Below, one piece after another: positions 281 through 34,409 of a DNA stretch of 38,668 nucleotides. Position numbers and translations under genes: made by a program. The DNA lies in IMG/VR virus record IMGVR_UViG_3300042515_003128, positions 1 through 38,668 of that record. One strand, 5' to 3'. The notes under the pieces are model-generated. The model was not told the origin of the DNA. It worked only from the letters and a program-made list of their open reading frames with translations, and did no database searches. Position 1 is the first letter of the stretch; the number at the start of each line of letters is the position of its first letter. This DNA is from a virus.

Positions 281-1387
281 ATGGCAGGCAAGGTCACGGT
301 CAGGCGGGTGAAGCGGCGGGGGGAATGGCGCTGGTGTGTTGATCGGGTGGAGCAGGGGCGGCGGGTGCGGGAGTTTTTCCGCGCGGCCCAGGAGGCGGAG
401 GCGCATGCGGTGGCGTTGCGACGGCAGCGGAGCGTCGCGGGGGATTCGTGGATCCGGCTGTCGGCGGCGGAACGGGCCGAGCTGATCGAGGTCTATGCCG
501 CCGCGCGGGCGCGGAATGTGTCGCTGCGGGACGTGTGGCAGGAATGGTGCGCGCAGGCGCCCAGCCGGGCCAAGGCGACGCCGACGCTCGCCGCGGCCGT
601 GTCGGCCTGCCTGGAGGCGAAGCGCGCGGCCGGGCGGCGGGAGCGTTATCTGTCCGCGCTGTCCGCGGCGCTGGGGCAATTCATCCGGGGGCGCGAGGAA
701 CTGGCCCTCGGCAGCGTGACGCGGCTGGAGATTCAGGCGCATGTGGGCGCGGTGGCGTCGCTGCATTCGCGGGCGACGCGGCTCAACCGGCTCTCGACGC
801 TGTTTGCCTGGGCGGTGCGCGCCGGGCATCTGGACGCCAATCCGTGCGACCGCATCGAGCGCGTGACGCCGGAGCAACGCCCGCCGCTAATCCTCACGCC
901 GGAGCAGGCGCATCACGCGCTGGCGTTCACGCGGGACCATTGGCCGCGGTATCTGGCGTGGCTGGCGCTGACGTTGCTGGCCGGCGTGCGGCCCGAGGAG
1001 GCCGAGCGGTCCGAATGGTCCGCCATCGCCCCGGGCCATGTCGTGATCGCGGCGCAGACGAGCAAGGTTCGCTGGCGGCGCGTGGTGCCGCTGATGCCGC
1101 TGGCGGCGGAATGGCTCGCGGAAGCGCGAAAACGGGAGGCGGAATTGCCCCTGCCGTCGATCTCGCTGAAGCGGTTTCGGCGCAAGCTGCGGGATGAACT
1201 GAAGCTGCCGAAGTGGCCCGCGGACCTGCTCCGGCACACGGCGGCGAGTTACCTGCTGGCGGAGCACCAGGACGCGGGCAAGGTGGCGTCGTGGCTCGGG
1301 AATTCGGCCGGCGTGCTGCTGCGGCACTACCGGGAACTTGTCACGCGGGACGAGGCGGCGCGGTTTTGGACGCCGCAGGGGGGATGA
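281..1387 (+). CDS. int: Tyrosine recombinase (phage integrase)
   Basis: This 368-residue protein catalyses site-specific recombination between attP and a host tRNA-Val gene. The C-terminal catalytic domain is readable: first arginine in LLAGVRPEEAERSEW, the lysine in QTSKVRWRRVVPL, the second arginine box in DLLRHTAASYLL, and the tyrosine nucleophile in LLRHYREL. The N-terminal part looks like the usual arm-binding and SAM-like core-binding regions. The frame stays open upstream to 176, but the ATG at 281 (MAGKVTVRRVKRRG) starts the basic, family-like sequence; upstream residues come from the att region. There is no clear Shine-Dalgarno sequence. The stop TGA is supplied by a family-A repeat arm that begins there. 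It is transcribed away from att. Confidence 0.95.
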   Translation: MAGKVTVRRVKRRGEWRWCVDRVEQGRRVREFFRAAQEAEAHAVALRRQRSVAGDSWIRLSAAERAELIEVYAAARARNVSLRDVWQEWCAQAPSRAKATPTLAAAVSACLEAKRAAGRRERYLSALSAALGQFIRGREELALGSVTRLEIQAHVGAVASLHSRATRLNRLSTLFAWAVRAGHLDANPCDRIERVTPEQRPPLILTPEQAHHALAFTRDHWPRYLAWLALTLLAGVRPEEAERSEWSAIAPGHVVIAAQTSKVRWRRVVPLMPLAAEWLAEARKREAELPLPSISLKRFRRKLRDELKLPKWPADLLRHTAASYLLAEHQDAGKVASWLGNSAGVLLRHYRELVTRDEAARFWTPQGG

Positions 1388-1412
1388 ATTTGGAAGGCAG
1401 GAAGGCAGGAAG
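1384..1412 (+). repeat. Family A repeat arm (forward)
   Basis: ATGAATTTGGAAGGCAGG followed by a second GAAGGCAGGAAG unit. Its TGA is the stop codon of the integrase. The matching reverse-complement arm is not next to it; the next element is a family C arm at 1568, with the 49-codon leftward gene between them. Confidence 0.8.
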
Positions 1413-1562
1413 CTAGGCCTGAAGCCGAAGCAGGTTGCGGATGGCCTCCGCCTGCGTCTTGCCGTGTTTTTTGAGCTTGGGCAGGTCGGCCGCATAGGCG
1501 CGCACCAGCTTCGTGGGCTCTTTCTTGGGCTGGCCGGGGCCGCGTTTGGTTGGGGTGCTCAT
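1413..1562 (-). CDS. Small basic protein, possible RHH-type DNA-binding protein (49 aa)
   Basis: A 49-codon leftward ORF begins MSTPTKRGPGQPKKEPTK and ends in an amphipathic helix (KTQAEAIRNLLRLQA). The basic N-terminus, short beta-like LVRAYAADL segment and two predicted helices resemble minimal ribbon-helix-helix (Arc/CopG-type) regulators, but the match is by eye. It lies convergent to int, between a family A arm and a family C arm. It may be a regulator or an accessory gene acquired with the repeats. The composition is protein-like (KKEP, conserved hydrophobic spacing), which argues for a real gene despite its size. Confidence 0.6.
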   Translation of the reverse strand: MSTPTKRGPGQPKKEPTKLVRAYAADLPKLKKHGKTQAEAIRNLLRLQA

Positions 1563-1567
1563 GGGTC

Positions 1568-1594
1568 AACAGCGAAGGCGCGAAGGCGCGAAAC
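1568..1594 (+). repeat. Family C repeat arm (forward)
   Basis: CAACAGCGAAGGCGCGAAGG and following GCGCGAA. The same family occurs at 11374 (forward) and as reverse complements at 11724, 12849 and 27756. Confidence 0.75.
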
Positions 1595-1611
1595 CGGGGC
1601 GCGTGTAGGGG

Positions 1612-1830
1612 TCAGGCGACAACTGCCCGAACCACCGAAAACGATCCATCGTCGTTGCGCAACTCCATGCCGACTTCAGCCACTTCATTTACCCGGAAGC
1701 GGAAATTCCAAAAGGTGCGGCGGGCATTTTTTGAAAGGCGGCTTTCGGTGACAATGGCAACCAGACCCGGATTCCGGGCAACAATATTGGACGCCATTTC
1801 AATCTGATTTTGCAGTTCGCTCGTTTGCAT
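1612..1830 (-). CDS. Small protein with its own leaderless promoter (72 aa, unknown)
   Basis: The protein starts MQTSELQNQIEMASNIVA and has a mixed helix/strand character with a basic centre (SKNARRTFWNFRFRV) and an acidic C-terminal part (ELRNDDGSFSV). I recognise no family. The ATG at 1830 lies 6 bp after a good -10 box, so the mRNA is probably leaderless or nearly so, and a 24-bp palindrome overlaps the -35 box. A dedicated, repressible promoter inside the leftward region is typical of a lysogen-expressed (moron) gene or a regulator that controls itself. It is separated from the upstream leftward operon by a family B hairpin. Confidence 0.75.
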   Translation of the reverse strand: MQTSELQNQIEMASNIVARNPGLVAIVTESRLSKNARRTFWNFRFRVNEVAEVGMELRNDDGSFSVVRAVVA

Positions 1831-1836
1831 GGGCAA

Positions 1837-1875: not shown

Positions 1876-1913
1876 GTTTCCCGGTGCGATTTTTTCAGGG
1901 CGGCCCACGGGAA

Positions 1914-1993: not shown

Positions 1994-1996
1994 CGC

Positions 1997-3326: not shown

Positions 3327-3334
3327 GGCACATC

Positions 3335-3508: not shown

Positions 3509-3727
3509 ATGAGGAACCAAGCAAAGATTTTGGCGGCGGCGGGTGGCGCAGGTTGCGTTACGTCGGGAGAAGTGAGCCGGGGCGGATTGTCTGCCGCGCC
3601 GGGGATTGAGGGGAATCGAAAGCCCACCCGCCGCCTGCTCCCGTTTTCGGCCCGCTGGGAGTTTGCCCGCGCGGCCGGCTCGCACGCGTTGGCCCGGGCC
3701 AACTTCTTTGAAGGGAGGCTGGCGTGA
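3509..3727 (+). CDS. Unknown early protein (72 aa)
   Basis: A 72-codon ORF with a purine-rich leader (AAAGGCAAAGGC before ATG). The N-terminus is Ala/Gly-rich and the second half is basic and aromatic (NRKPTRRLLPFSARWEFARA). The stop overlaps the next start (GTGA), which supports translation of both. No family recognised. The Gly-rich first half makes its reality less certain than that of its neighbours. Confidence 0.5.
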   Translation: MRNQAKILAAAGGAGCVTSGEVSRGGLSAAPGIEGNRKPTRRLLPFSARWEFARAAGSHALARANFFEGRLA

Positions 3728-4041
3728 AGGCAGAAGTGGGAATGCAGAAGGCAGAAGGGGCCAGCGCGTTGCCGCCGACGGATGGCACGACGTTTATGGC
3801 CGAGGCGCGCGTGATCTGGGATGACGGCGCATTTGTCACCGTGGATCCGGTCGTGGGCCGGATGCGCTTTTCGGAGTCGGGCGAGCTGGTCTGGGCGCTC
3901 GGGGGCTTGTCGGTGCGCGGCTCGCTTGACGCGCAGGTGAAGATTGACCGCTGGACGCACGCGCCGCAGCCGGGCCGCACGTTTGCCTGGTTGCGTGATC
4001 CCCGCGGCGAGCCCGCCTATGACGACGGAGGTGACTGGTGA
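3724..4041 (+). CDS. Unknown early phage protein (up to 105 aa)
   Basis: The frame is open from GTG 3724, but the first 18 codons are translated from a half copy of the family B repeat (GAAGGCAGAAG...ATGCAGAAGGCAGAAGGGG). The conserved-looking protein may begin at the ATG at 3796 (MAEARVIWDDGAFVTVD). That part is rich in beta-like and charged residues (VVGRMRFSESGELVWALGG, QVKIDRWTHAPQPGRTF). It ends YDDGGDW with GTGA overlap to the next gene. Function unknown. Confidence 0.7.
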   Translation: MKAEVGMQKAEGASALPPTDGTTFMAEARVIWDDGAFVTVDPVVGRMRFSESGELVWALGGLSVRGSLDAQVKIDRWTHAPQPGRTFAWLRDPRGEPAYDDGGDW

Positions 4042-6789: not shown

Positions 6790-7030
6790 GCCGCACCGGC
6801 TTGGTGCGGCGCAGTGGGCGGGGCGGGGCTAGGCACGGCCTGCCGCGGCGATGCGCGGCTGGGCGAGGCAATGCGCGGCTCGGCCTGGCGCGGCAAGTCC
6901 ACACACGGCGCATCGGGAACGGTGCGCCGCAGTGGGCCAGGCGCTGCGGGGCCGGGCGTGGAACGGCAGTGCGAGGCCAGGCTGGGCAAGTCCACACACG
7001 GCGCATCGGGAACGGTGCGTCGCAGTGGGC
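6790..7030. repeat. GC-rich hairpin-repeat region upstream of the primase-helicase (gap 6749-7124)
   Basis: No convincing gene lies at 6749-7124. Two 46-bp copies of GGCAAGTCCACACACGGCGC... (6892-6937 and 6985-7030, 93 bp apart) differ at one base. Each forms a 10-bp hairpin, CGGCGCATCG-GGAA-CGGTGCGYCG, with a GNRA-type GGAA loop. A third, diverged hairpin lies at 6790-6810 (GCCGCACC-GGCTT-GGTGCGGC). All three are followed by CGCAGTGGGC. Placement directly before the replication gene suggests a replication origin (iterons) or a structured RNA. Confidence 0.7.
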
Positions 7031-7124
7031 GCGGCACGTCTTGGCGTGGCAGTGCCCGGCGCGGCGAGGCAGGTCGAGGTCCGGGGCGCGACGGATACGC
7101 GCATTCACTTTTTTGAGCTGAGGC

Positions 7125-9185
7125 ATGTCACGCGTTGATCACATTTTGAAGCTGCTTGGAGCCGATGAGGCGAAGGGGCGCACGCCCTGCCTGATTCCCA
7201 TTCCGGCGAAGCAGAAGGGGCCGGTGTTCCCGGATTGGAACAAGGTGGATTGGGAGCGGATGCAGGATGAGGATTACCGGGCGCAGCTCGAAGCGTCGCC
7301 GAATCTGGGCGTCATCCTGGGCAAGCAGTCGGGGCCGCTGGCGACGGTGGACATTGACGTCGAGGAATACGTGGGGCCCTTCCTGGAGGCGAATCCGCGG
7401 TTGCGTCAATGCCTGCGGACGCGGGGCGCGAAGGGCTGCCAGATTTGGGCGTGGTTGAAGCCGGACCCGAAGCTGGTGGGCCTCGGGCTGCCGAATTGGC
7501 AGCGGGGTTTTCCCGATCAGCGGTTCAACATTCCGCATCGGGTGGTGACGCAGCCGATGGCCGACGGCAACGGCGGCACGAAGGAAGTGCCGCTGGTGGT
7601 GATGGAATGGCGGGCGGGGGCGACGCAGAGCGTGATCCAAGGCATTCACCCGAGCGGGAACGAATATCGGGTGGTCGTGGAGGCGCCGCCGGCCGAGATC
7701 AGTTTCCGGGACATTATCTGGCCGGAGTATCTGAAGGCGCCGTGGCGGGATGATTTGTTCAAGGCGGTCGAGGCTTTGGCCGGTGATCCGTTCACCACGA
7801 CCTCGGACGGGCTCAGCCTGGCCCATCATTTTTGGGCGGCGCACTACGCGCTGATCCATGACGTCGTCTTCGAGCCCGATGAATCCCGGTTTTACGCCTA
7901 CAACCCGGTGACCGGGGGCTGGGAGAGCCGGATCGAGGCGCAGATGTTTACGGAGATCAGCCGGGATTTGCTGCGCCTCGGGCGGGATTTGCCGGGGCAG
8001 GCCGGCCAGCTGCTCGCGGGCTCAACGGGCCGCTCGATCAAGAGCGTTTCTGCCATTGCGAGTTTCCTCCAGGGGGAAGTCGCCAAGCCCCGGGTGTTTG
8101 AACGCGAGCCCGGCGTGATTCACCTGGAGAACGGGATGTTGGACGTGCGGACCAATCCGCCGTTCCTGGACTCCTTTTCGCCGAACTATTTCTCGCGGAA
8201 TCAGGTGCGGCACAATTACGCGCCCGGGGCGCCGTGTCCGCTGTGGAAAGACAAGCTGCTGGCCGACGCGTTGGATTCGGATGACCAGGTGCTGCTGCAG
8301 AAGCTCGCGGGCATGTGCTTGCTGGGAAACAACCTGCTTCAGCGCATCGTGATCCTCACGGGGAATGCGGGCGCCGGCAAAAGCCAGATCGCCCAGGTGA
8401 TTCAAGGCATCATTGGGCGGCACAACGTGGCGCAGCTCCGCACGGAGCACCTGGACGAACGCTTCGAGGCGGAGGGTTTCATCGGCAAGACGCTGCTCGT
8501 GGGCTCGGATGTGCCGGGGAGCTTCCTGAATCGGGCCTCGGCGTCGCAGCTCAAGTCGCTGACGGGCGGCGATTACCTGCAGGCCGAAATCAAGGGCGGT
8601 CGGCGCGTGGACATCACGGGGAATTTCAACGTCATCATCACCTGCAACAGCCGGCTCGTGGTGAAGACCGACGAGGATTCGGGCGCGTGGCGTCGTCGTC
8701 TGGTGATCCTGGCCTTTAACCGGCCGCCGCCGGCCGAGAAGATTCCCGACTTGGCGAAGCTGATCTTGGCGACCGAGGCGTCCGGGGTGCTGGACTGGAT
8801 GATCGAAGGGGCGCGCATGGTGCTGCACGACGTCGAGGCGCACGGGCGACTGGTGATGGCCCCGGCGCAGGCGCAACGCATCGAGGCGCTGCTGAATGAG
8901 TCGGAGAGCGTGCGGCATTACGTCGAGACGGCGTTGGAGCGCGTGGATCGGGCGCAGGGACAAACGACGACGACGGAGGAGCTGTTGGAGGCTTATCGGG
9001 AATTCTGCGCCGAGCGGGGCTGGAATGCCTTGGCGGACAGCACCTTTCTGAATCAGTCGCGGGACTTGGTGCTGCGGGTGCATTCACTGAGCCAGAGCAA
9101 CGATATCAAGCGCAAGGTGGGCGACCGCGATTCGGTGAAGCGGGGATATCGGCATCTGAAGATCAAGGGAGGGCCAGAGGAATGA
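7125..9185 (+). CDS. Primase-helicase (AEP prim-pol plus D5/P4-type SF3 helicase)
   Basis: A 686-residue replication protein. The N-terminal region (about 1-200) looks like a bifunctional primase-polymerase: LGVILGKQSGPLATVDIDVE carries the acidic pair D76/D78. The C-terminal region is a D5_N plus superfamily-3 helicase: D5-like ENGMLDVRTNPPFLDSF and NYFSRNQVRHNYAPGAPCPL, Walker A GNAGAGKS (413-420), sensor-like IITCN (about 504-508) and arginine residues at about 523-525 (AWRRRLVIL). It should prime and unwind phage DNA at the origin, in the manner of P4 alpha-type proteins. The start follows GCTGAGGC, a fair ribosome site, and lies 95 bp after the hairpin repeats. The stop overlaps the next gene (ATGA). 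Confidence 0.9.
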   Translation: MSRVDHILKLLGADEAKGRTPCLIPIPAKQKGPVFPDWNKVDWERMQDEDYRAQLEASPNLGVILGKQSGPLATVDIDVEEYVGPFLEANPRLRQCLRTRGAKGCQIWAWLKPDPKLVGLGLPNWQRGFPDQRFNIPHRVVTQPMADGNGGTKEVPLVVMEWRAGATQSVIQGIHPSGNEYRVVVEAPPAEISFRDIIWPEYLKAPWRDDLFKAVEALAGDPFTTTSDGLSLAHHFWAAHYALIHDVVFEPDESRFYAYNPVTGGWESRIEAQMFTEISRDLLRLGRDLPGQAGQLLAGSTGRSIKSVSAIASFLQGEVAKPRVFEREPGVIHLENGMLDVRTNPPFLDSFSPNYFSRNQVRHNYAPGAPCPLWKDKLLADALDSDDQVLLQKLAGMCLLGNNLLQRIVILTGNAGAGKSQIAQVIQGIIGRHNVAQLRTEHLDERFEAEGFIGKTLLVGSDVPGSFLNRASASQLKSLTGGDYLQAEIKGGRRVDITGNFNVIITCNSRLVVKTDEDSGAWRRRLVILAFNRPPPAEKIPDLAKLILATEASGVLDWMIEGARMVLHDVEAHGRLVMAPAQAQRIEALLNESESVRHYVETALERVDRAQGQTTTTEELLEAYREFCAERGWNALADSTFLNQSRDLVLRVHSLSQSNDIKRKVGDRDSVKRGYRHLKIKGGPEE

Positions 9186-10891: not shown

Positions 10892-11374
10892 ATGCACCCC
10901 GAAGACCTGAGCACCCCGGCCGTCCGGCTACGCGAGCCCGCCGTCGACTTCCCGCACGAACTCCTCGACCGCCCCGAGGACATCGCCCGCGAGGAACTCC
11001 AGACCGTGCTCGGCCGCGCCGTCAGCCCCGAGGACACCCGCCGGCTGTTCGTGTGGCACCTCAGCCGCCAGCACGCCGACTCCGCGGCCGAGTGGACCGT
11101 TCTGGAGCGCGTCCTCCTCTGGATCGGCGGCGCCCGCCCGGCCGACTACCGCGCCACCGGCCGGGGCGCCAGCCGCCCCGCCGAGACCGAAGCCGAGACC
11201 AGCGAACGCCGCGTTGGCCTCCGCGCCGCCATCGCCCTGGCCGAATTCGTGCCCCACGGCCAGCACGCCTACAGCACCCGCTCCCTCGCCAAGATCTTCG
11301 GCGTCAGTCACGGCGAAGTCTTTCGCCTCCGCCAAAACCTCCGCGCCATCACCCCGGCGCAAGAGCCGATATAA
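10892..11374 (+). CDS. HTH-containing unknown protein (160 aa)
   Basis: Starts MHPEDLSTPAVRLREPAVDF. The C-terminal 40 residues hold a helix-turn-helix-like segment, YSTRSLAKIFGVSHGEVFRL. The middle (RRLFVWHLSRQHADSAAEWT) is helical. It lies between the two terminase genes, so a packaging-site or late-transcription role is possible. It is followed at once by a family C arm (AACAGCGAAGACGCGAA). Confidence 0.65.
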   Translation: MHPEDLSTPAVRLREPAVDFPHELLDRPEDIAREELQTVLGRAVSPEDTRRLFVWHLSRQHADSAAEWTVLERVLLWIGGARPADYRATGRGASRPAETEAETSERRVGLRAAIALAEFVPHGQHAYSTRSLAKIFGVSHGEVFRLRQNLRAITPAQEPI

Positions 11375-11434
11375 ACAGCGAAGACGCGAACGGCATGAAG
11401 GCAAAACAATCTGGAAAGCAGGAATGCAGGAAAA
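11374..11434 (+). repeat. Composite repeat arms C plus A, left border of the 103-codon gene
   Basis: Family C arm AACAGCGAAGACGCGAA (11374-11390) is followed by a family A arm CTGGAAAGCAGGAATGCAGG (from about 11410). Their reverse complements lie in mirrored order at 11701-11754, so the two composite arms bracket the gene between them. Confidence 0.75.
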
Positions 11435-11706
11435 GCAAAAGCAGAAGGCCGCCCCAACTCACGCTGGAGCAACACCGGGAACTTGGTCGCGCCCTGAGGA
11501 CGGCAAACGAAGCAATCGTGTTTCTTTGGGCTTTCGGTTTGTGGAAAAGTTCCGAACTCGGCGGCCTTCGCGCGAACGCAGCTCACTCGGCCCTGTTGCA
11601 GCTAAGGAATGAAATGGATTCCATCGTTTGCCGGGAGCACAAGACCATTGAAGATGCGCAACAAATCTACATTGGCCCGGGCGACCAACCTTGGGCCGTT
11701 TCCTGA
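11395..11706 (+). CDS. Repeat-bracketed accessory protein (103 aa, unknown)
   Basis: The first 15 or so residues (MKAKQSGKQECRKSKS) are translated from the family A arm. The body (LTLEQHRELGRALRTANEAI, FLWAFGLWKSSELGGLRANA) is a helical protein with Trp residues and an ending QIYIGPGDQPWAVS. It lies inside inverted composite repeats and its base composition is less C-rich than its neighbours, which suggests cargo moved in with the repeats. No family recognised. The true start may be downstream of the repeat-derived codons. Confidence 0.65.
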   Translation: MKAKQSGKQECRKSKSRRPPQLTLEQHRELGRALRTANEAIVFLWAFGLWKSSELGGLRANAAHSALLQLRNEMDSIVCREHKTIEDAQQIYIGPGDQPWAVS

Positions 11707-11754
11707 TTTCCTGCCTTCCAAATTCTTCGCGCCTTCGCGTCTTCGCTGTTCAAA
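11701..11754 (-). repeat. Composite repeat arms A' plus C', right border of the 103-codon gene
   Basis: TCCTGATTTCCTGCCTTCCA then AAATTC, followed by TTCGCGCCTTCGCGTCTTCG and CTGTT. Mirror image of 11374-11434; ends 5 bp before the methyltransferase start. Confidence 0.75.
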
Positions 11755-11758
11755 ATCC

Positions 11759-12628
11759 ATGACCCTCTTCCCCGAACTTGCCCCCGAGCCTGTCGCCAGC
11801 GCGCCGGCCGAGGCCCCGCGCCGGGCCATGCCCGTGCCCGAGGTCTGGTCTGATTCGTGTGAGGAAACCGCCGTCCTGTTCGGCCTCGCCGCCCGGGCGC
11901 CCGTGCAGGCCATCGTCACCAGCCCGCCCTATTGGTCAGTCCATCGTTACACCAACGCCGCGGTCTGCGAAATCGGCTGGGAATCCACGCCCGACGCCTA
12001 CGCCCAGCGCCTTGCCCGCCTGTTCGCCCTGCTCCGCGACACCTGCCTCACCCCGCAAAGCACCCTCTGGATCAACCTCGCCGACGTCATGAACGATGCC
12101 GACTGGGGCATCCGCGACAAGTCCCTGCCGGAAAAGACCCTGCTCGGCCTGCCCTCGCGCTTCCTCCTGGCGATGCTCGCCCAGGGCTTCACCTGCCGCA
12201 GCGAAATCGTCTGGACCAAAACCCGCGGCCTCATCGAAAACCCAACCGACCGGCCCACGCGCACCGACGAGCGCGTCTTCCTCTTCAGTTGCGGCCCCGG
12301 CTACTACTTCGACGCCGCGGCCCTCAGCGAACCCGACGACCTCGGCGGCCGGCGCAATGGCCGCAACCAATGGGCCCTCGCGCCCGATCAGGACTCCGCC
12401 GCCTACGCCCGGCACCCGGCCATCATGCCCCGCGCCCTCGCGCAACGCTGCATCCTCGCCGGCACGCGCCCCGGCGACCTCGTGCTTGATCCCTTCTGCG
12501 GCACCGGCACGACCCTGGCGGTCGCCTACGCCCACGGCCGGCGCGCCATCGGCCTCGAACTCAATCCCGCCTACGTCGCCCAGGCCCGCGCCCGCCTCGC
12601 CGCCACGACTCCGGGATTCCCGCTTTGA
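11759..12628 (+). CDS. DNA methyltransferase (SPPY type, N4-cytosine or N6-adenine)
   Basis: A 289-residue beta-class amino-methyltransferase. The catalytic motif TSPPYW is at 54-59, and the AdoMet-binding motif LDPFCGTGTT at 243-252 is followed by GRRAIGLELNP. This motif order (IV before I) defines the beta class. TSPPYW is common in N4-cytosine enzymes, so m4C is slightly favoured. No restriction partner is nearby, so this is an orphan phage enzyme, probably protecting DNA from host restriction or marking packaging or transcription sites. It lies between repeat elements, just before the large terminase. Confidence 0.9.
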   Translation: MTLFPELAPEPVASAPAEAPRRAMPVPEVWSDSCEETAVLFGLAARAPVQAIVTSPPYWSVHRYTNAAVCEIGWESTPDAYAQRLARLFALLRDTCLTPQSTLWINLADVMNDADWGIRDKSLPEKTLLGLPSRFLLAMLAQGFTCRSEIVWTKTRGLIENPTDRPTRTDERVFLFSCGPGYYFDAAALSEPDDLGGRRNGRNQWALAPDQDSAAYARHPAIMPRALAQRCILAGTRPGDLVLDPFCGTGTTLAVAYAHGRRAIGLELNPAYVAQARARLAATTPGFPL

Positions 12629-12656
12629 TGAATCTGGAAGGCAGGAAAACAGGAAC
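12628..12656 (+). repeat. Family A repeat arm, left border of the 85-codon gene
   Basis: ATGAATCTGGAAGGCAGGAA then AACAGGAACC, overlapping the last base of the methyltransferase stop (TGATGAAT). Its mirror arm is at 12914-12939. Confidence 0.75.
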
Positions 12657-12662
12657 CGACGC

Positions 12663-12920
12663 ATGACGGCACAGCTTGAATTCTTCCGCACCGCTCCGAA
12701 GGCGACGGATGCCAACATCGACTGGGACAGCGTCACCGGCCTCGACCTCGCCAACGACATCAGTCTGGCCAAGCGGTGGGAACGTGAGGTTAACCGACCC
12801 TTTGCCCGCCGCATCAACAAATGGCGCCGCCGCATGAAGAATTCGTCCTTTTCGCGCCTTCGCGTCTTCGCTGTTGGTCTCCCCGCTCCTAGCTCCCCGC
12901 TCCCTGCCTCAGATTCCTGA
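12663..12920 (+). CDS. Repeat-bracketed small protein with repeat-derived tail (85 aa)
   Basis: The body MTAQLEFFRTAPKATDANID then WDSVTGLDLANDISLAKRWE and a basic helix (RRINKWRRRMKN) is about 60 residues. The last 25 codons (FSRLRVFAVGLPAPSSPLPA) are translated family C' repeat sequence, so the original stop has been lost or displaced. The gene lies between A arms at 12628 and 12914 and looks like cassette cargo. Unknown function; possibly a DNA-binding protein given its basic helix. Confidence 0.65.
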   Translation: MTAQLEFFRTAPKATDANIDWDSVTGLDLANDISLAKRWEREVNRPFARRINKWRRRMKNSSFSRLRVFAVGLPAPSSPLPASDS

Positions 12921-12939
12921 TTTCCTGCCTTCCAAATTC
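12849..12939 (-). repeat. Family C' and A' arms upstream of terminase
   Basis: C' arm TTCGCGCCTTCGCGTCTTCG (from about 12850), a stretch of CTCC-type repeats, then A' arm TTCCTGATTTCCTGCCTTCC plus AAATTCA ending at 12940. The A' arm abuts the terminase ATG directly, so the terminase start is defined by the repeat edge. Confidence 0.75.
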
Positions 12940-12940
12940 A

Positions 12941-14707
12941 ATGTCCTCGCTTCCTCCGCCCCGCTTCATTGGCACCCTCGAATGGGCCGAGCGCAACCTC
13001 CGTGTCGGCGACGGCGCGTTTCGGGCGGCCGACTTCCCCTGGCTCGGGCCCATTGCCCGCGAGGTCGACCGCCGGCGCGGCTGCACGTTCGGCCTCATGT
13101 TCCCGCCGCAGGTCTTCAAGACCCTGTTTCTCCAGATGCGCGCGCTCCGCAACATCGCCGTCGAGCCCGGCCGCCAGCTCTTCTACTGCCTGAACGGCAA
13201 GGACGCCGCCGATCTCGCCGACGAAAAGCTCTGCCCCCTGCGCGACAGCGTGCCCGCCGTCATGGCCCACTTCCCGCACGATCCCGATGCGCGCGGCGGC
13301 AAGCAGATCTGGAAGGCCATCGACGCGCCCTTCAGTCTGCTCGGCGCCGAAAATCGCAACCATCGCAACAGCCGCTCCGGCCGCACCATCTACCTCGACG
13401 AGCCCTGGCAATTCGAGCCCGGCTGGATCCCCGAGATCATCGCCCGGTCCGATTCCTACCAATGGCAGCGCCAGATCATCCTCGCCACGACCGCCCCGAG
13501 CGTCGACGACGAGGTCGATGTGCTCTGGCGCACGTCGAGTCAGATGAACTGGCACGTCGTCTGCCTGCATTGCCGCGAGCGCGTGCCGCTGGAATTCGGC
13601 GAACCCGATTCGCCCGGCGGCATCAAGTGGGACAGCGACGAGCACACCCGCGAGCCCGACGGCTCCTGGAAGATCGAGGTCGCCAAGCTCACCGCCCGCT
13701 GGCATTGCCCCGCGTGCAATCAGGTCACGCTCTACGATCCCAAGACCCTGCGCGAACTCAACGACCCTGCCCGCGGCGCCGGCTACGTGCAGGGCAATCC
13801 CGCGCCCGACCCACAGGTCCACTTCTGGCGCGGCAACGCCTTCCTCATGCGCGACTGGCGCCAGCTCGTCGGCGAATGGCTGGCGGCCTGCAACGCCAAA
13901 CGCCGCGGCAGCCTGGAGGCCACCGAGGACTTCTACCGCAAGAAACGCGTCGAGTCGTGGGATCCCATGAAGGTCACGCGCCGCACGAACGACCTGCCCG
14001 TGGGCGACTACGACCTCGGTGATCCGTGGGCCGACGAGGGCAAGATGGCCGACGGCGCGCCGATGCGTTTCCTCTGGGTCGACGTGCAGCGCGATCACTT
14101 CTGGGCCGTCGCCCGGCAATGGAGCCCCAACGCGCAAAGCCGCCTGCTGCACTTCGAGCGCCTCTGGGAAGGCAGCCAGATCGAGGCCCTGCGCAACCGC
14201 CTCGGCATCCCGCCGAATCACGTCGTGCTCGACGAGGCCTACAACGCCGACCTCGTGCACCAGATCTGCACCGCCTACCATTTCCTCTGCGCGAACGGCG
14301 TCTCGGCCCGGGCCTTCCCGCATCACGACGGCGTGCGCCGCATCTTCGGCGAGCCGCGCACCATCGACCCCTTCCTCGGCCGGTCGAATCAGGGCATGCA
14401 ATGGTGCGTCGGTTTCCATTACGCGTCCGAAGGCGCCAAGGACCGGCTCGACACGCTCCGGCAGGCCCGCAGCGCCGACGGCAAACCGCTCTGGACCATT
14501 GCCCGCAACGCGCCCAGCGAATACGTCGAACAAGCCTACGCCGAGGCCAAGATCCGCAAGCGCCACCCGAAGAACAACGGCTGGTTCTACGAATGGAAGA
14601 AGCTGCGCCCGGACAACCACGCCTTCGACATGGAATGCGGCCAGGTGATCAGCGCCAGCATGTGCGGCCTGCTGACGGCCACCAGCACGGCGGAGAGTGA
14701 GGAATGA
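12941..14707 (+). CDS. Terminase large subunit, GpA family (588 aa)
   Basis: The ATPase-nuclease motor that packages DNA into proheads. The ATPase region has a P-loop-equivalent PPQVFKTLFLQ (55-65, K60/T61) and Walker B TIYLDEPWQ (about 149-157). A zinc-finger-like insert has CLHC (208-211) and CPAC (256-259), a GpA hallmark. The C-terminal nuclease part begins FLWVDVQRDHFWAVARQW. The length matches GpA proteins. The usual glycine before the P-loop lysine is replaced by phenylalanine, an unusual variant. There is no Shine-Dalgarno sequence; the start abuts a family A' arm. The stop TGA lies in a family B arm. Confidence 0.9.
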   Translation: MSSLPPPRFIGTLEWAERNLRVGDGAFRAADFPWLGPIAREVDRRRGCTFGLMFPPQVFKTLFLQMRALRNIAVEPGRQLFYCLNGKDAADLADEKLCPLRDSVPAVMAHFPHDPDARGGKQIWKAIDAPFSLLGAENRNHRNSRSGRTIYLDEPWQFEPGWIPEIIARSDSYQWQRQIILATTAPSVDDEVDVLWRTSSQMNWHVVCLHCRERVPLEFGEPDSPGGIKWDSDEHTREPDGSWKIEVAKLTARWHCPACNQVTLYDPKTLRELNDPARGAGYVQGNPAPDPQVHFWRGNAFLMRDWRQLVGEWLAACNAKRRGSLEATEDFYRKKRVESWDPMKVTRRTNDLPVGDYDLGDPWADEGKMADGAPMRFLWVDVQRDHFWAVARQWSPNAQSRLLHFERLWEGSQIEALRNRLGIPPNHVVLDEAYNADLVHQICTAYHFLCANGVSARAFPHHDGVRRIFGEPRTIDPFLGRSNQGMQWCVGFHYASEGAKDRLDTLRQARSADGKPLWTIARNAPSEYVEQAYAEAKIRKRHPKNNGWFYEWKKLRPDNHAFDMECGQVISASMCGLLTATSTAESEE

Positions 14708-14789
14708 AGAATGCAGAATGCAGAATGAAGAATAAAGATGGGGCCGGCCTGCCGGGGTTTCTGCATTCTTCATTCCCCCTTCTGCCTTC
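14701..14789. repeat. Family B hairpin repeat
   Basis: Left arm GAATGAAGAATGCAGAATGC (from 14702) and right arm TTTCTGCATTCTTCATTCCC (from 14758) flank a GC-rich loop with GCCGGCCTGCCGG. The terminase stop codon lies inside the left arm. Confidence 0.85.
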
Positions 14790-14803: not shown

Positions 14804-14830
14804 CCACCATGGACGGCGGGCGCGTAGGGC
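14804..14830 (+). promoter_or_regulatory. CCACCATGGACGGC leader, copy 1
   Basis: CCACCATGGACGGC, then GGGCGCGTAGGGC, then the ATG at 14831. The internal ATG (14809) is 22 nt before the gene start and in another frame. The AGGG just before the start may help initiation. Confidence 0.6.
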
Positions 14831-15115: not shown

Positions 15116-15303
15116 ATGAATTTGGAAGGCAGGAAAGCAGGAACATAGAAAGCCTTGCCCGTAACCCGGGCAAATGAGCAGACAGGGGAACGTGCCCGAA
15201 GTCTGCGCAGTCGGGTAAAAGTAAACCCCGGCCGCTACCCGTCGGCGTAACAACAGCGCGGGAAAATTTGGTTTCCCTTCCTGCCTTCCTGCCTTCCAGA
15301 TTG
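15116..15303 (+). ncRNA. Repeat-bracketed four-hairpin structured segment
   Basis: A forward family A arm (15116-15143) and a reverse arm (15274-15303) flank about 130 bp with no gene. It contains four hairpins in series: TTGCCCG-TAACC-CGGGCAA (15155-15173); GCAGAC...GTCTGC (15178-15206, with an inner GGG/CCC); CGGGTA...TACCCG (15212-15241); and GGGAAA-ATTTGG-TTTCCC (15260-15277). The outer A arms can pair to close the whole. It looks like a small structured RNA carried as cargo between the A arms, upstream of the portal gene. No known RNA family is recognised. Confidence 0.55.
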
Positions 15304-15322
15304 ATCCGGTCTTCGCCCCTTT

Positions 15323-15349
15323 CCACCATGGACGGCCGCCGCGCTAGGC
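15323..15349 (+). promoter_or_regulatory. CCACCATGGACGGC leader, copy 2
   Basis: CCACCATGGACGGC, then CGCCGCGCTAGGC, then the portal ATG at 15350. Internal ATG at 15328, again 22 nt before the start. Confidence 0.6.
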
Positions 15350-22543: not shown

Positions 22544-22615
22544 GAAGGCAGAATGCAGAATGAAGAAGGGCGCGGCCGGCCGGTTTCTGCATTCTTCATT
22601 CCCCCTTCTGCCTTC
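22543..22615. repeat. Family B hairpin repeat
   Basis: Left arm GAAGGCAGAATGCAGAATGA (from 22544) and right arm TTTCTGCATTCTTCATTCCC (from 22583) around a GGCCGGCCGG loop. It begins at the stop of the upstream gene. Confidence 0.85.
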
Positions 22616-26685: not shown

Positions 26686-26919
26686 ATGCAATTTCGCATC
26701 CAGGGGAAAATGCGCCGGCCGACCAATCCGCGGCCACCGCCCGTGACCCGCCGCGAGGCCGCCTGCCGCGCCTGCGAATGGTTCAACGCCCCGCAGCAGA
26801 AGTGCGCGCACCCCAACACGGCGACCTGGGCGCGCTGCTGGAGCTGCCTGAGCCGCGACCGCCCCTGGCTCAAGCCCGGCGGCCACGACGCCTGCCCGCT
26901 CGGCGCAAAGGGGGAATGA
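26686..26919 (+). CDS. Small Cys-rich protein (77 aa)
   Basis: Six cysteines: CRACEW, QKCAHPN, ARCWSC and DACPL. The C-x2-C ... C ... C-x2-C ... C spacing suggests a zinc or Fe-S site. The N-terminus is basic and Pro-rich (MRRPTNPRPPPVTRREA). The stop is supplied by the family A arm that begins here, and the next gene's ATG overlaps it. Unknown function; similar Cys-rich proteins occur beside tail genes in other phages as I recall. Confidence 0.7.
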   Translation: MQFRIQGKMRRPTNPRPPPVTRREAACRACEWFNAPQQKCAHPNTATWARCWSCLSRDRPWLKPGGHDACPLGAKGE

Positions 26920-27710
26920 ATTTGGAAGTCAGGAAAGCAGGAACAGCCGAGAGCACAGAGCCGGTGCGGATCACGCTCGGCGATTTGACCGCCACGCTGT
27001 TTCGTGGGGACTGCCTCACCGTGCTTGCGTCCTTCAAAAGCGACTCGGTCGAAATGATTTGGACGGATCCGCCATACGGTCACTCGAATCACGTCGGCGA
27101 CCTAAATGCCAGGCTGAACGACTACCGCGAAATCGCTGGCAGCCCAATCGAAAACGATGGCCCATTGGAAATGCGCGCAGTCGTGGACGGGATGCTGACT
27201 GAAGCGGCGCGCGTTTTGCGGCCTGACTGCTGCTGCTGCTGCTGCTGCTGCTGCGGCGGCGGCGGCCCGCGGCCCACGTTTGCCTGGGTGGCAAATCGTA
27301 TGGACTGCTCCGGCTTGGAGTTTTTTCACTCGATCATCTGGGACAAAATGAATCCCGGCCTCGGGTGGCGATATCGCCGGCAGCACGAGATGATCATGGT
27401 TTCGCATCGGAAAGGCGGAAAGCTGGCATGGAACGATGACTATCCGGCGCAGCCAAACGTGATGCGGATCAGCAAACCCCGCGGCGATTTGCATCCGAAT
27501 GTGAAGCCCGTGGAGCTAGTGCAACGCTTTATCCAGCAGCACACGGCAAAAGCCGAAACCGTTCTCGACCCGTTCATGGGCAGCGGCACGACCGGCGTCG
27601 CCTGCCTGCGCACGGGCCGGAACTTCATCGGCATCGAGAAAGACCCAAAACACTTTGCCACCGCCGTCGAGCGCCTCGAACGCGAGGCCCGCCAAGGCGT
27701 CCTCCTTTAA
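26916..27710 (+). CDS. DNA methyltransferase with poly-Cys/poly-Gly tract (N6-adenine type)
   Basis: A beta-class methyltransferase: WTDPPYG (49-55), then HPNVKPVELVQRF (193-205), then the AdoMet motif LDPFMGSGTTG (217-227). DPPY is typical of N6-adenine enzymes. Residues 105-117 are nine Cys and four Gly encoded by a TGC/GGC tract. The first nine residues (MNLEVRKAG) are translated from the family A arm, so the native start may be a GTG at about 26963 before VRITLGDL. Inverted A arms lie on both sides (26916 and 27721). Orphan enzyme, no restriction partner seen. Confidence 0.9.
   Translation: MNLEVRKAGTAESTEPVRITLGDLTATLFRGDCLTVLASFKSDSVEMIWTDPPYGHSNHVGDLNARLNDYREIAGSPIENDGPLEMRAVVDGMLTEAARVLRPDCCCCCCCCCGGGGPRPTFAWVANRMDCSGLEFFHSIIWDKMNPGLGWRYRRQHEMIMVSHRKGGKLAWNDDYPAQPNVMRISKPRGDLHPNVKPVELVQRFIQQHTAKAETVLDPFMGSGTTGVACLRTGRNFIGIEKDPKHFATAVERLEREARQGVLL
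27228..27266 (+). repeat. (TGC)9(GGC)4 trinucleotide tract in the methyltransferase gene
   Basis: TGC repeated nine times (27228-27254), then GGC four times (27255-27266). Slippage would add or remove whole Cys/Gly residues without a frameshift, so it could tune but not switch off the enzyme. Confidence 0.95.
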
Positions 27711-27720
27711 AGAGCCCGTC

Positions 27721-27786
27721 TTTCCGTTCCTGCCTTCCTGCCTTCCAGATTGATCTTCTTCGCGCCTTCGCGCCTTCGCTGTTCAA
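27721..27786 (-). repeat. Family A' plus C' arms, right border of the methyltransferase
   Basis: GTTCCTGCCTTCCTGCCTTC then CAGATTG, followed by TTCGCGCCTTCGCGCCTTCG and CTGTTC. Mirror of the A arm at 26916-26944; the methyltransferase lies between them. Confidence 0.8.
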
Positions 27787-31466: not shown

Positions 31467-31467
31467 G

Positions 31468-31903: not shown

Positions 31904-32658
31904 AAACGCTCCTCCTTTCCCTCCTGCTCGCGCTCCGCTGCTACGCGCCGACGCCGCTGTTCTTTGCGCAGAACGGGGCGAGCGCGGCGGCATTCAGCCC
32001 GGCCGACGTTTCCGGGCTCACGATCTGGCTGGTTGCCGATGACATTTCCGGGGCCGATGGCGACACGGTGCAAACATGGTCAGCGCGCACCCCGACCACG
32101 ATTAACGCGACGCAAGCCACGCTCGCTTCGCGCCCCACGCTTCAGACCGGCGAAGTCAATGGGCACAATGCAGTGCTCGCGGACGGCGTAAACGACCTGA
32201 TGACCCTTTCCGCGTCCGTATCCTCAACGGCCAGTTGGACCGTGTTCTCGGTGCAGAAACGCTCGGCCAGCGGGTCGCTGGGCTACGCGCTGGCAACGGC
32301 GTCAATCACTCCCCCCTACAGCCCGATCGAATACGGCTCACTCTCTCGGCTTTATGTCGCATCGAGGACAGACCAGAAACACGCCACAATCCCAAGCCAT
32401 GCGTGGCACGTGCTCACCGGCCAGGATGCGTCGGGAACGCTCAATGCGTGGGTGGATGGAACGGCTCAAACCCTGACCGCGGCCTCCGCCACCGGCACAA
32501 CTGACTTTGACCGGCTGTTTGCGCGGTCAAACTTTGAGTTTTCAGCCGTCTATGTGGCCGAGCTGATCTTCTACAACCGAACACTGACCACGACGGAGCG
32601 GCAGAACGTGGAGGCTTACCTACGGTCAGCTGAGAAATATGGGACCCCTGCGCCATGA
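31900..32658 (+). CDS. LamG/concanavalin-like protein with signal peptide (252 aa)
   Basis: Starts MKTLLLSLLLALRCYAPTPL with a signal-like hydrophobic core and a probable cleavage near FFAQ-NGASA. The mature part is a laminin-G-like beta sandwich: VSGLTIWLVADDISGADGDT, VNGHNAVLADGVNDLMTLSA, WTVFSVQKRSASG, WHVLTGQDASGTLNAWVDGT, then VAELIFYNRTLTTTERQNVE. LamG domains bind carbohydrate. A secreted or surface sugar-binding protein next to a tailspike that also has a signal suggests a module acting outside the cytoplasm. Overlap with the next gene (ATGA). Confidence 0.8.
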   Translation: MKTLLLSLLLALRCYAPTPLFFAQNGASAAAFSPADVSGLTIWLVADDISGADGDTVQTWSARTPTTINATQATLASRPTLQTGEVNGHNAVLADGVNDLMTLSASVSSTASWTVFSVQKRSASGSLGYALATASITPPYSPIEYGSLSRLYVASRTDQKHATIPSHAWHVLTGQDASGTLNAWVDGTAQTLTAASATGTTDFDRLFARSNFEFSAVYVAELIFYNRTLTTTERQNVEAYLRSAEKYGTPAP

Positions 32659-33035
32659 GAATCATCCTTGCCATCCTGCTCGCAATACTCCCGCTCGCGC
32701 TGTTGGCGCAAACCTCCACGGTCATCATCGTTCCCGCGCACCTCCGCGACGCGGCCAACGCGGTGGCCAAGGCAGAGTTCGATCCGCTTGGCGGCGAGTT
32801 CACGTTCACCGCGGCGCTGGTCACGTTGCCCGCAACCAACGTGACGCACTTCTGGTGCGCGACGCCGTTCTCCGCAACCAATCGCGCCAAGCTCAACGTG
32901 TTGGCCAACACGCCGCCGTTTGCCGGCGTGACGCTGGTGCTGGACTACGACCTCACCAACGGCGCCGCACCCTTCGAGTTCCTCGCCACCCACGGCCTCG
33001 CGACTTACTCGCCCACAATGTTTACACAACCATGA
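32655..33035 (+). CDS. Small exported protein (126 aa)
   Basis: Reads MRIILAILLAILPLALLAQT, a strong signal peptide with cleavage likely at LLA-Q. The mature part is beta-rich (STVIIVPAHLRDAANAVAKA, GEFTFTAALVTLPATNVTHF, PPFAGVTLVLDYDLTNGAAP). It is the third protein of this block with a Sec signal. Unknown function; it is probably exported with the LamG protein or as part of the same structure. Confidence 0.75.
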   Translation: MRIILAILLAILPLALLAQTSTVIIVPAHLRDAANAVAKAEFDPLGGEFTFTAALVTLPATNVTHFWCATPFSATNRAKLNVLANTPPFAGVTLVLDYDLTNGAAPFEFLATHGLATYSPTMFTQP

Positions 33036-33036
33036 A

Positions 33037-33396
33037 ATGGCACCCATCAGCCAGGGCGACGTATGGAAACGCCTGAACGCAATGGCCGACCGACTCACCC
33101 ATCTGGAGCCGGTAGTAGACGCGCTGCGGGAACAAGCCAACCGCACCGAGGCGCGCTTGGATGATTTTGAGAAGGAAGCCCGGGGCCGCTGGGAGGCACA
33201 CAACAACCAAATGCACACTCTGAAGACCGACATCACCGCCGAACTGCACAACCTCAAGTCCGAGCAACGCGTCCACGTCGCGGTCGTGGGTCTGGTCATC
33301 GGCATTCTCAGCTTCCTCGGCATCACCATCGGCGGCTGGGTCATCAAATCCTCCCTCGATTCCGTGCGTGCTAGCATCAACACCCAACAACGATGA
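33037..33396 (+). CDS. XhlA-like lysis-associated membrane protein (119 aa)
   Basis: A long coiled coil (DVWKRLNAMADRLTHLEPVV, REQANRTEARLDDFEKEARG) is followed by one C-terminal transmembrane segment (VVGLVIGILSFLGITIGGWV). This is the layout of XhlA-type haemolysin/lysis proteins of phages. It begins just after the previous stop, followed closely by the holin-like gene, supporting a lysis cassette. Confidence 0.7.
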   Translation: MAPISQGDVWKRLNAMADRLTHLEPVVDALREQANRTEARLDDFEKEARGRWEAHNNQMHTLKTDITAELHNLKSEQRVHVAVVGLVIGILSFLGITIGGWVIKSSLDSVRASINTQQR

Positions 33397-33707
33397 ACGA
33401 AGAAACGCTCATTGCCGGCCTGCTTGATACCTATTCCGCCAAACACGGCTGGCTCGCCGCCGCGCTGACGTGGATCGGCACCGCCCGCGTCGCCTTCAAG
33501 CTGGTTTCCGGCAAGCTGGAGGAAGCCATCGCGGCCTTCGTGGAATTCAGCGTCTCGACCAAGGACGCCGATGCCGTGGACCGCATTAACGCCCTGTTCG
33601 CCAGCCGCACCTATCGCCTGCTTGCTTTCCTCGCCGACTACATCGCCAGCGTGAAACTCCCGCTCCAAGCCCGGACCGGCCAAACGGTGAACATTCCAAA
33701 ACCATGA
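33393..33707 (+). CDS. Unknown lysis-cassette protein, weak holin candidate (104 aa)
   Basis: Starts MNEETLIAGLLDTYSAKHGW, with amphipathic or partly hydrophobic helices (LAAALTWIGTARVAFKLVSG, TYRLLAFLADYIASVKLPLQ). The hydrophobic stretches are shorter than typical holin helices, so holin is a positional guess. The ATG overlaps the previous gene's end (ATGA) and the stop overlaps the next start. Confidence 0.55.
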   Translation: MNEETLIAGLLDTYSAKHGWLAAALTWIGTARVAFKLVSGKLEEAIAAFVEFSVSTKDADAVDRINALFASRTYRLLAFLADYIASVKLPLQARTGQTVNIPKP

Positions 33708-34156
33708 AGACCCCAAAAACCGACATCTACGGCCGCCCGATTCCGTGGCACGACAAAGTGGAATGGTGGATTGAGGACCATCTGGGCAAGATACTCCTTT
33801 GCCTCATGCTGCTTGGCATAGGCTGTTTCTTTGCCGGATGCGCTTCCACCAAAGCCAACAGCCAAAAGACCCTCGCCGGCATCCAATACGGGGCCGACGC
33901 CGCCATGAAGCTGTGGGCCGGCTACGTGGTGCGCGAACAGAAGCGCGCCGATGCCTTGCCCGATGGCCAGCGCGAAGCCGCCCACGCGAAGCTCCTCGAA
34001 CGCCGGCTCCAAGTGGACGATGCGCGGCGGAAGTTCTCCGCCGCATGGGCCACCGCCTTTGCCGCCGCCCGCTACGACACGCAGCAACCGGCCGCCGGCC
34101 AGGTGCTGAGCCTGCTCACCAACCTCGAAACCACCGTCAACGCCTTCGCCAAATGA
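33704..34156 (+). CDS. Lipoprotein-like membrane protein (150 aa)
   Basis: About 30 N-terminal residues (MKTPKTDIYGRPIPWHDKVE) precede a hydrophobic segment ILLCLMLLGIGCFFAGCAS with a lipobox-like AGC. The rest is helical and charged (LPDGQREAAHAKLLERRLQV, QVLSLLTNLETTVNAFAK). The long n-region is odd for a lipoprotein, and the segment could be a plain anchor. In this lysis-like group it might be a spanin partner. The last codon overlaps the next ATG. Confidence 0.65.
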   Translation: MKTPKTDIYGRPIPWHDKVEWWIEDHLGKILLCLMLLGIGCFFAGCASTKANSQKTLAGIQYGADAAMKLWAGYVVREQKRADALPDGQREAAHAKLLERRLQVDDARRKFSAAWATAFAAARYDTQQPAAGQVLSLLTNLETTVNAFAK

Positions 34157-34335
34157 CTGCCATCGCCATCCCGCTTGCCATCGAAGCCGCCAAGGCTCTT
34201 GCGCCGTTTGCCATCGATGTTCTCCGGCTGCTGAAGCAACGCGGCGAACTCACGCCCGAGCAGATCGCCGAACTGCAAGCCCTCAACGCCAAGACCGAAG
34301 CCGACTACGTGAAGGCAGCCGGCGGAAGGGAATGA
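34153..34335 (+). CDS. Small helical protein (60 aa)
   Basis: Reads MTAIAIPLAIEAAKALAPFA, then IDVLRLLKQRGELTPEQIAE, and LNAKTEADYVKAAGGRE. Alternating Ala/Leu helices suggest a small membrane-associated or coiled protein. Begins by ATGA overlap; its TGA stop is supplied by the family A arm that starts here. Last gene of the lysis-like group. Confidence 0.6.
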   Translation: MTAIAIPLAIEAAKALAPFAIDVLRLLKQRGELTPEQIAELQALNAKTEADYVKAAGGRE

Positions 34336-34409
34336 ATCTGGAAGACAGGAAAGCAGGAACCGAGCAGACCGGCCCGGTTCCCTTCCTGCCTTCCTGCCTT
34401 CCAAATTGA
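34332..34409. repeat. Family A palindromic hairpin (complete, short loop)
   Basis: Left arm ATGAATCTGGAAGACAGGAA then AGCAGGAACCG, a short loop AGCAGACCGGCC, and right arm CGGTTCCCTTCCTGCCTTCC, TGCCTTCCAAATTG. Long imperfect inverted repeat: the empty form of family A, with no cargo between its arms. Confidence 0.85.

Follow-up and report, generated by a model that had tools for sequence, protein, structure and literature searches.

The virus record IMGVR_UViG_3300042515_003128, a stretch of 38,668 bp that was analysed over its full length and is hereafter called the window, carries families of short repeats at its gene boundaries. Such a repeat is referred to here as an arm (the inverted copy being marked with a prime), a site that holds arms as a dock, and the DNA lying between two arms as its cargo. 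Comparison with related phages provided good support for the exchange of cargo at the arms. Our preferred reading, to which we assign a probability of about two-thirds, is that host-type repeats resembling repetitive extragenic palindromic (REP) sequences act as portable gene-boundary elements for the exchange of accessory genes, probably by short-homology recombination. This reading draws on the arms themselves, on docks in both empty and loaded states, on the replacement of one cargo by another within a dock, on the recurrence of one cargo at more than one dock and across phage groups, and on a bias of start codons (ATG) towards the upstream arms of two arm families. All of the sequences were metagenome contigs or metagenome-assembled genomes (MAGs), and the analysis was computational throughout.

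The arms belong to three purine-rich families (A, B and C) with an internal periodicity of 7–8 nt. A scan with the consensus sequences TGGAAGGCAGGAARNCAGGAA (A), GAAKGMAGAAKGMAGAAKGMAGAA (B) and CGAAGRCGCGAAGGCGCGAA (C), allowing up to 3 mismatches, identified 25 arms in the window, compared with a mean of 0.08 (maximum 1) in 100 dinucleotide shuffles and none in the reversed sequence. A arms were found at 1391 on the plus strand and as plus/minus pairs at 11412/11700, 12635/12914, 15123/15278, 26923/27727 and 34339/34383; C arms at 1573 (plus), 11726, 12851 and 27759 (all minus); and B arms at 3726 (plus), 21377 (minus) and as plus/minus pairs at 1912/1960, 14702/14766, 22544/22592 and 34545/34603. 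The arms named in the original prediction, which had been made from the DNA letters alone, were hence present, except that of the two C arms placed outside the A pair at 11404/11701 only the right-hand one (11726–11745) was called by the scan, the left-hand one (11374–11390) being a partial copy. The arms are 20–35 nt long and usually occur with the purine arm first and the pyrimidine arm second. Spacers between plus and minus arms, compiled from eight phage records, fell into two groups, 20–91 nt (empty hairpins) and 134–1206 nt (loaded pairs). Paired arms fold into long hairpins, with z values of −3.3 to −5.8 for three empty pairs and −6.2 for the loaded dock D7. By eye, the consensus of a single arm contains neither a palindrome nor a GTAG or CGTC tag, and the hairpins arise between paired arms.

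Relatives of the window were sampled from IMG/VR using its terminase large subunit (TerL) and portal sequences, which gave 15 loci of 12 records, and using the arm pattern, which gave 38 stretches. The comparison covered 24 records, each set against the window and against the others, based on matches of at least 150 nt and at least 85% identity. Twelve of these 24 differed from the window between matching flanks, resulting in 14 distinct variable sites after merging. Both ends of the site lay within 40 nt of an arm in seven cases and at least one end in nine; bases this close to an arm make up 5.5% of the window. A second phage group shares with the window only parts of the region from 28.1 to 34.4 kb, at 87–97% identity (matches of at least 120 nt). 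Applying the same 40-nt limit to this group, both ends fell at an arm in 4/12 variable sites of G008, 5/15 of G009 and 4/19 of G014, and at least one end in 7/12, 7/15 and 11/19, respectively. Site ends lay close to arms more often than did random positions, in the window and in each of these three records (permutation p ≤ 0.0001 each), the counts of variable sites being non-independent across records because of common ancestry. When all pairs were pooled, an arm was within 40 nt of 354 of the 554 query breakpoints, which are likewise not independent. A harder control was based on a list, compiled by hand, of the gene junctions between 7.1 and 38.3 kb: six of the nine junctions with an arm were variable, versus at most three of the 24 others (Fisher p = 0.005). 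This excess speaks against the strongest rival explanation, according to which the arms serve solely as boundary elements of regulation or translation and cargo enters illegitimately anywhere, with only the insertions at gene boundaries surviving.

The expectation that DNA between the arms should differ between related phages whose flanks match was borne out at six of the window's docks and once more in the second phage group, where the lengths at arm sites were 16 versus 139 nt, 9 versus 263 nt, 8 versus 573 nt and 0 versus 317 nt between phages; some of the length-variable sites in this group have an arm on one side only. The tail block common to both groups ends at 34337 in G008 and G014, inside the left arm of dock D11. 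The contrary outcome, identical cargo in relatives, was seen in near-identical records: G018, L017 and L022 match the loads of the window where they overlap it, as expected for recent sisters.

The individual docks displayed the following states, a record being named for a dock only where it covers that dock. D4 (11404–11745) consists of an A arm, a 103-codon gene (11395–11706), an A′ arm (11700–11725) and a C′ arm (11726–11745), and was found in four states: the 103-aa gene (window, G018), a 152-aa gene (G017, L010, L012), a 135-aa gene (L014) and a nearly empty C pair (G019). D5 (12628–12940) comprises an A arm, a leader MNLEGRKTGTDA ending in ATGA, an 85-codon gene (12663–12920), a C′ arm (12851–12870) and an A′ arm which, as predicted, adjoins the ATG of terL at 12941, the arm being taken to 12940. 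Its four loads are the 85-aa gene (window, G018, L014), QueC with a 200-aa gene (G017, L010, L012), a DUF5131 gene (G019) and a 128-aa gene (L013). All of them follow one A arm, whose outer end differs in one or two positions, and all end at a common A′ arm before terL, with the exception of L013, in which a C-type stretch lies between A′ and terL. D6 (14702–14789) is a B/B′ hairpin over the terL stop codon. This pair is empty in the window, as it is in G018, L017 and G019, and had not been counted among the docks originally; it has to be, since relatives hold A-flanked cargo there. The loaded form measures 577–731 nt (G017, L010, L012, L013, L014, L016) and carries 84- and 83-aa genes (G017, L010, L012, L016), an 89-aa gene (L013) or a 143-aa gene (L014); L019 has another load, its left flank lying outside the contig.

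D7 (15116–15306), in which an A arm and an A′ arm enclose a 134-nt hairpin segment (15144–15277), was the most diverse, with six states: the hairpin segment (window, G018, L010, L012, L017), a methyltransferase (L019), a second methyltransferase matching the first at both ends (G017, L016), a metallophosphoesterase (G019), an empty B pair (L013) and a 69-aa gene (L014). All four combinations of an empty or loaded D6 with the hairpin segment or another load at D7 exist (window, L010, G017, G019). D10 (26916–27778) consists of an A arm, an N6/N4 DNA methyltransferase gene (26916–27710), an A′ arm and a C′ arm; the methyltransferase is present in the window and G018, and an empty B hairpin in G017, which has a related methyltransferase at D7 instead. 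D11 (34332–34409), an A/A′ hairpin, is empty in the window, G017, G018 and, as judged by a match spanning 32557–34410, G009; it holds a hairpin segment in G019, and G008 and G014 have a C-type arm at the corresponding gene end. Two further B/B′ hairpins are empty: D9 (22544–22615) in the window, G017 and G018, L022 and L023 covering one side, and D12 (34545–34626) in the window, G017, G018 and G019.

Cargo was also found to change position. The methyltransferase of D10 (26912–27726) sits at D7 in L019 with 94.8% identity, a B hairpin replacing A′ on its right, and the 134-nt hairpin segment of D7 sits at D11 in G019 (91.7%). A 351-nt stretch, 99.4% identical, occupies an A–A dock of G017 and its sisters and a C–C dock of G008, G011 and G014, phages of a largely different group. 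The QueC and 200-aa genes known from D5 recur in L190, where an A arm lies 72 nt before them and the identity is 88%. A mini-hairpin of G019 (26994–27095) seems to have kept the opening codons of the methyltransferase gene between its arms, in the manner of a deletion scar. The occurrence of the same cargo between arms at different docks is a second point against illegitimate entry at arbitrary sites, and the position of the junctions is a third: where the A arm was kept, the match ended 0 to +4 nt from the inner end of the arm in seven distinct comparisons. The left junction offsets were +1 (G017) at D4; +1 (G017), 0 (G019) and +4 nt (L013) at D5; 0 (L019) and +1 nt (G019) at D7; and 0 (G019) at D11, the junctions of L010 and L012 being repeats of those of G017. 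Exchange could hence take place by homologous or annealing recombination at the arms. The original prediction had viewed the arms as docking sites for cargo, perhaps exchanged by homology or by a REP-associated tyrosine transposase (RAYT); the swapping of cargo at arms was confirmed and homology fits the junctions with a kept A arm, while the RAYT route found no support, as described below.

The arms also carry start codons, which refines the idea of docking sites. The A arm reads ATGAATYTGGAAGGCAGG (MNLEGRKAG). In agreement with the original prediction, the TGA of the arm is the stop codon of the upstream gene in three cases, namely int (1385–1387), a gene for a Cys-rich protein (26917–26919) and the gene before D11 (34333–34335), and in each the ATG of the arm overlaps this TGA; to these can be added the terL stop codon (TGA, 14705–14707), which lies inside a B arm with the same overlap. 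The methyltransferase reading frame can begin in the A arm of D10 (MNLEVRKAG...), a possible start codon for the cargo, and the A arm of D5 yields a 12-codon leader ending in ATGA at the following start. When distinct arms were counted over all records, oriented with the structural genes forward, ATGAAT was present in 25/57 upstream versus 2/31 downstream A arms (Fisher p = 0.0002), and ATGAACAG in 8/15 upstream versus 0/29 downstream C arms (Fisher p = 0.00004). Translation may be coupled at the ATGA overlaps of the arms. A separate start-associated element, CACCATGGACGGC, is located at 14805–14817 on the plus strand, 22 nt before the next ATG, and recurs at 15324, 22631, 27795 and 34634, such that it precedes an ATG by 22–26 nt at five docks (D6, D7, D9, D10 and D12), with inverted repeats upstream of it. 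This element is present also in G017 and G019 and was not found, at up to one mismatch, in G008, G009, G010, G013 and G014. A copy at 17769 encodes the C-terminus of the protease (TMDGRETQ).

A number of observations weigh against recombination between arms as the preferred account. In the swaps at D6 (six records) the arm family changes, and the match breaks off within the B arm, at the ATGA common to A and B arms. At D4 (L014, G019), D7 (G017, L013, L014, L016) and D10 (G017) the match stops short of the arm, which is of another family or composite. Because the arm family changes in several swaps, arm-to-arm homology alone is an insufficient explanation; swaps of this kind must have drawn on homology from gene ends or from the CACCATGGACGGC element, or on an illegitimate event. 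For five of the 14 variable sites in the window, neither end lies at an arm. The QueC cargo of L190 has an A arm upstream only, with no downstream arm in the stretch fetched, and L191 and L192 carry this cargo at 87% identity without any arm. Among loci on viral contigs, of which 1.5 kb was fetched, arms were near 4/21 QueC and 6/45 methyltransferase loci, one of the arm-positive loci being a single weak C match. A search for a RecT/Red-type recombinase gave no match among the early genes searched, which did not include every early open reading frame (ORF). The ATG is missing from more than half of the upstream A arms, and B arms have no ATG bias (1/19 upstream versus 0/16 downstream).

Some of these points would be expected if the arms served solely as boundary elements, a role comparable to that of the extended start-associated sequences (ESAS) of mycobacteriophages. 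The variable sites without an arm, the armless QueC cargo, and the swapping of arm families at one boundary all fit such a rival, and the bias of the ATG towards upstream arms in families A and C, together with the regular position of CACCATGGACGGC, suggests a role in expression. It does not account for the three observations given above, namely the greater variability of arm junctions in the same genome, the match ends at the inner arm end, and the same cargo at different docks. We regard it as a somewhat unlikely alternative to portable boundary elements, though one of some weight. The counts for QueC and methyltransferase loci also led us to reject the possibility that each cargo is a transposon bringing its own arms; with so few cargo relatives having arms, the arms seem to be a property of the phage and host lineage and not of the cargo gene.

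That the arms should recur in Verrucomicrobiota genomes was likewise confirmed: A arms, and more rarely C arms, are present there as interspersed repeats. In GTDB, the exact A pattern was found in 19 stretches of seven MAGs titled Verrucomicrobia, Spartobacteria or Terrimicrobiaceae. A relaxed search of the seven gave 41, 32, 22, 1, 8, 1 and 25 A copies, on both strands, with none in the reversed control; hence the copy number is high (22–41) in four of these genomes and 1–8 in the other three. In a sample of the phylum, an A copy with at most one mismatch was present in 9/387 genomes (reversed control 2/387), and the A family is therefore lineage-restricted. The 19 host loci include nine convergent A pairs with spacers of 12–60 nt in seven and of 115 and 1094 nt in two, and the host copies include empty hairpins and C-A-A′-C′ composites. 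C arms (at most one mismatch) were present in four of five hosts, with 13 copies in all, and the B arm in none of five A-arm hosts. Among relatives of G002 the B arm was detected in 3/38, one being a single low-complexity match, with 1/38 (10 matches) in the reversed control. Judged by ORFs alone, no cargo gene was evident between or near the host arms, ten of the loci lying among long ORFs, and host pairs with spacers of 100–330 nt, considered as loaded docks, had no clear cargo gene by the same measure. The idea that candidate hosts harbour a prophage of the same kind was also dismissed: when 57 relatives of G007 were searched for TerL, eight genomes had matches, and these reached only 24–35% identity. 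It is tentatively conceivable, with the odds against it, that REP-like repeats constitute a cassette-exchange system shared by the phages and hosts of Verrucomicrobiota, in which docks are at once recombination sites, hairpins and translation starts. In such a system, genes for anti-restriction and other accessory functions would pass around as plug-in modules, with no dedicated integrase being needed. Among the entries listed in searches of open-licence papers, none describes these arms in Verrucomicrobiota phages.

Inverted terminal arms, host copies in both orientations and the coexistence of empty and loaded states would also be expected of a non-autonomous transposon, similar to a miniature inverted-repeat transposable element (MITE) or a REPIN, whose movement relies on a host transposase, for instance a RAYT, acting in trans. 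Y1 transposase genes were indeed present in all seven arm-bearing hosts, but they also occurred in 5/14 control genomes, and no arm-linked locus was identified: arms were near none of the four Y1_Tnp loci examined, out of 24 matches in the seven genomes, the phage's own host not having been identified. RAYT-driven movement is not supported by these searches. Furthermore, one load replaces another at a fixed dock, no transposase was found among the cargo genes scanned (which did not include every cargo ORF), and neither of the REP tags described in passages of PMC3733652 (GTAG and CGTC) occurs in the arm consensus; we consider movement as a transposon improbable. Even less credit can be given to the view that the variation is an assembly artefact, different phages having been joined at shared repeats in metagenome contigs, since the arms are short (20–35 nt) and identical loads occur in metagenome records that are different, though not necessarily independent, as at D4–D6 of G017, L010 and L012 and D6 of L016, and at D6–D7 of the window, G018 and L017.

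DNA modification is prominent among the scanned cargo genes, several of which had no match at all and others of which matched PHROGs of unknown function. The named matches were to N6_N4_Mtase (PF01555, 1.9e-29), QueC (PF06508, 2.3e-44), DUF5131 (PF07505, 3.6e-62), Metallophos (PF00149, 6e-5) and Dam (PF05869, 7e-12), as well as to a PHROG DNA methyltransferase (9e-70) at an A–A dock of G010. In L187–L190, a QueC cassette is followed by the 200-aa gene of unknown function (phrog_15826); the two genes plausibly form a 7-deazaguanine DNA modification pair, the pairing being a guess. Within the methyltransferase cargo of the window, a triplet-repeat run at 27228–27266 encodes nine cysteines followed by four glycines (three glycines in L019). 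Further repeat types, GGAATGACCAATGAGCAATGAC and CTCCCCGCTCCTAGCTCCCCGCTCCCTGC, were observed in or beside the cargo of G017, L013, L014 and L019 and at 12880–12912 of the window. The hairpin segment at 15144–15277 has four predicted hairpins and no evident gene, and is a candidate RNA as judged from its sequence; two changes were counted over approximately 100 columns between phages whose flanks there are 85–87% identical. No compensatory change was seen between two versions of the segment, and an Rfam search of the window gave no match at the gathering score.

A mechanism for exchange through portable boundary elements can be outlined. REP-like short interspersed repeats of the kind seen in Verrucomicrobiota chromosomes would have been turned into portable boundary elements among a community of phages that infect Verrucomicrobiota. 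The upstream arm, often overlapping the end of the resident gene, would possibly supply an ATGA stop-start overlap, and the downstream inverted arm would precede the next gene. An empty pair would form a hairpin; a loaded pair would enclose either a structured RNA-like segment or a small accessory gene or two (for DNA methyltransferases, QueC, DUF5131, metallophosphoesterase or products of unknown function). Since the arms are near-identical and of the same polarity from dock to dock, an incoming genome could pair arm with arm and exchange the intervening DNA at different docks, leaving the flanking genes undamaged, and the cargo would be translated by the ribosomes of the upstream gene. The benefit may consist of anti-restriction and other accessory functions. 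The boundaries can be seen here and are repeated at many junctions, and one cargo can be traced from dock to dock and from phage to phage; a long-standing question, how phage genomes gain and lose accessory genes, thereby becomes directly testable. Repeats of chromosomal type would be linked to phage evolution, and the arms would provide a sequence handle by which anti-restriction genes that have been exchanged, genes of unknown function and candidate RNAs could be located in phages that have not been cultured.

The window encodes an integrase, a TerL, a portal, a ClpP-type head protease and a major head protein, and because of these genes it probably represents a temperate tailed phage. The tyrosine integrase at 176–1387 was the sole integrase found. 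By TerL, the closest named phage in the collection searched is Verrucomicrobia phage P8625 (28.7% identity). An A arm at the 3′ end of int (1384–1412, plus strand) contains the TGA of that gene and begins a variable site (1420–1999) that differs in G019; the site includes an empty B/B′ hairpin (1912–1990). A single B arm lies at 3726–3756 (plus strand), and G019 has 14 nt in place of the 320 nt that follow it. A direct terminal repeat of 211 bp is present at the ends (1–211 and 38458–38668); it contains an apparent tRNA 3′ half (a T arm, TTCGAAACC, and CCA) followed by a hairpin and a T run. This tRNA-like repeat is probably the attachment site; ARAGORN called no complete tRNA. In addition, a 93-bp G-rich repeat in two tandem copies (6847–7032, 81% identical) precedes the primase-helicase gene at 7125.

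Several known systems bear comparison with the arms. Phage morons are small accessory genes inserted between conserved phage genes, as is the cargo described here, which differs in having shared, interchangeable flanking arms. Mobile regulatory cassettes of T4-type phages, reportedly described by Arbiol et al. in 2010, are said to consist of a promoter and terminator stem-loops; they are similar in their location at gene junctions and, by the title of that paper, in being proposed to mediate modular shuffling, whereas the elements studied here are host-type repeats in inverted arm pairs, the upstream arm often has an ATG, and the same cargo is found at several docks. In lambdoid phages each boundary sequence is generally described as marking one module junction. 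Here, unlike in those phages, one repeat family is common to many junctions, and cargo can therefore change position. The lambdoid boundary sequences are described in passages of PMC3029335 as short and conserved. With REPs, bacterial interspersed mosaic elements and REPINs, as far as passages of PMC3733652 describe them, the arms share the features of short multi-copy repeats with inverted pairs, both orientations and composite structures; they differ in being non-palindromic singly, in lacking a GTAG or CGTC tag or any linked RAYT that we could find, and in being present in phages. The ESAS of cluster K mycobacteriophages consist, according to passages of PMC3203893, of 17-bp imperfect inverted repeats with spacers mostly of 4–13 bp beside a start-associated sequence (SAS), GGGATAGGAGCCC; they are confined to the genome half with non-structural genes, and M. 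smegmatis has no consensus SAS copy. In both systems, imperfect inverted repeats separated by a spacer stand at gene starts, beside a short conserved element before the ATG (GGGATAGGAGCCC there, CACCATGGACGGC here), and occur in many copies per genome. The arms differ from ESAS in that they recur in genomes of the host phylum, adjoin structural genes and bracket swapped cargo; the same passages of PMC3203893 do not describe cargo between the repeats. The arms work like the boundary-element exchange proposed for lambdoid and T4 phages, with a layout resembling ESAS, and we do not class them as a member of any of these because they are of a repeat type found in the host phylum, are common to many docks and often carry start codons.

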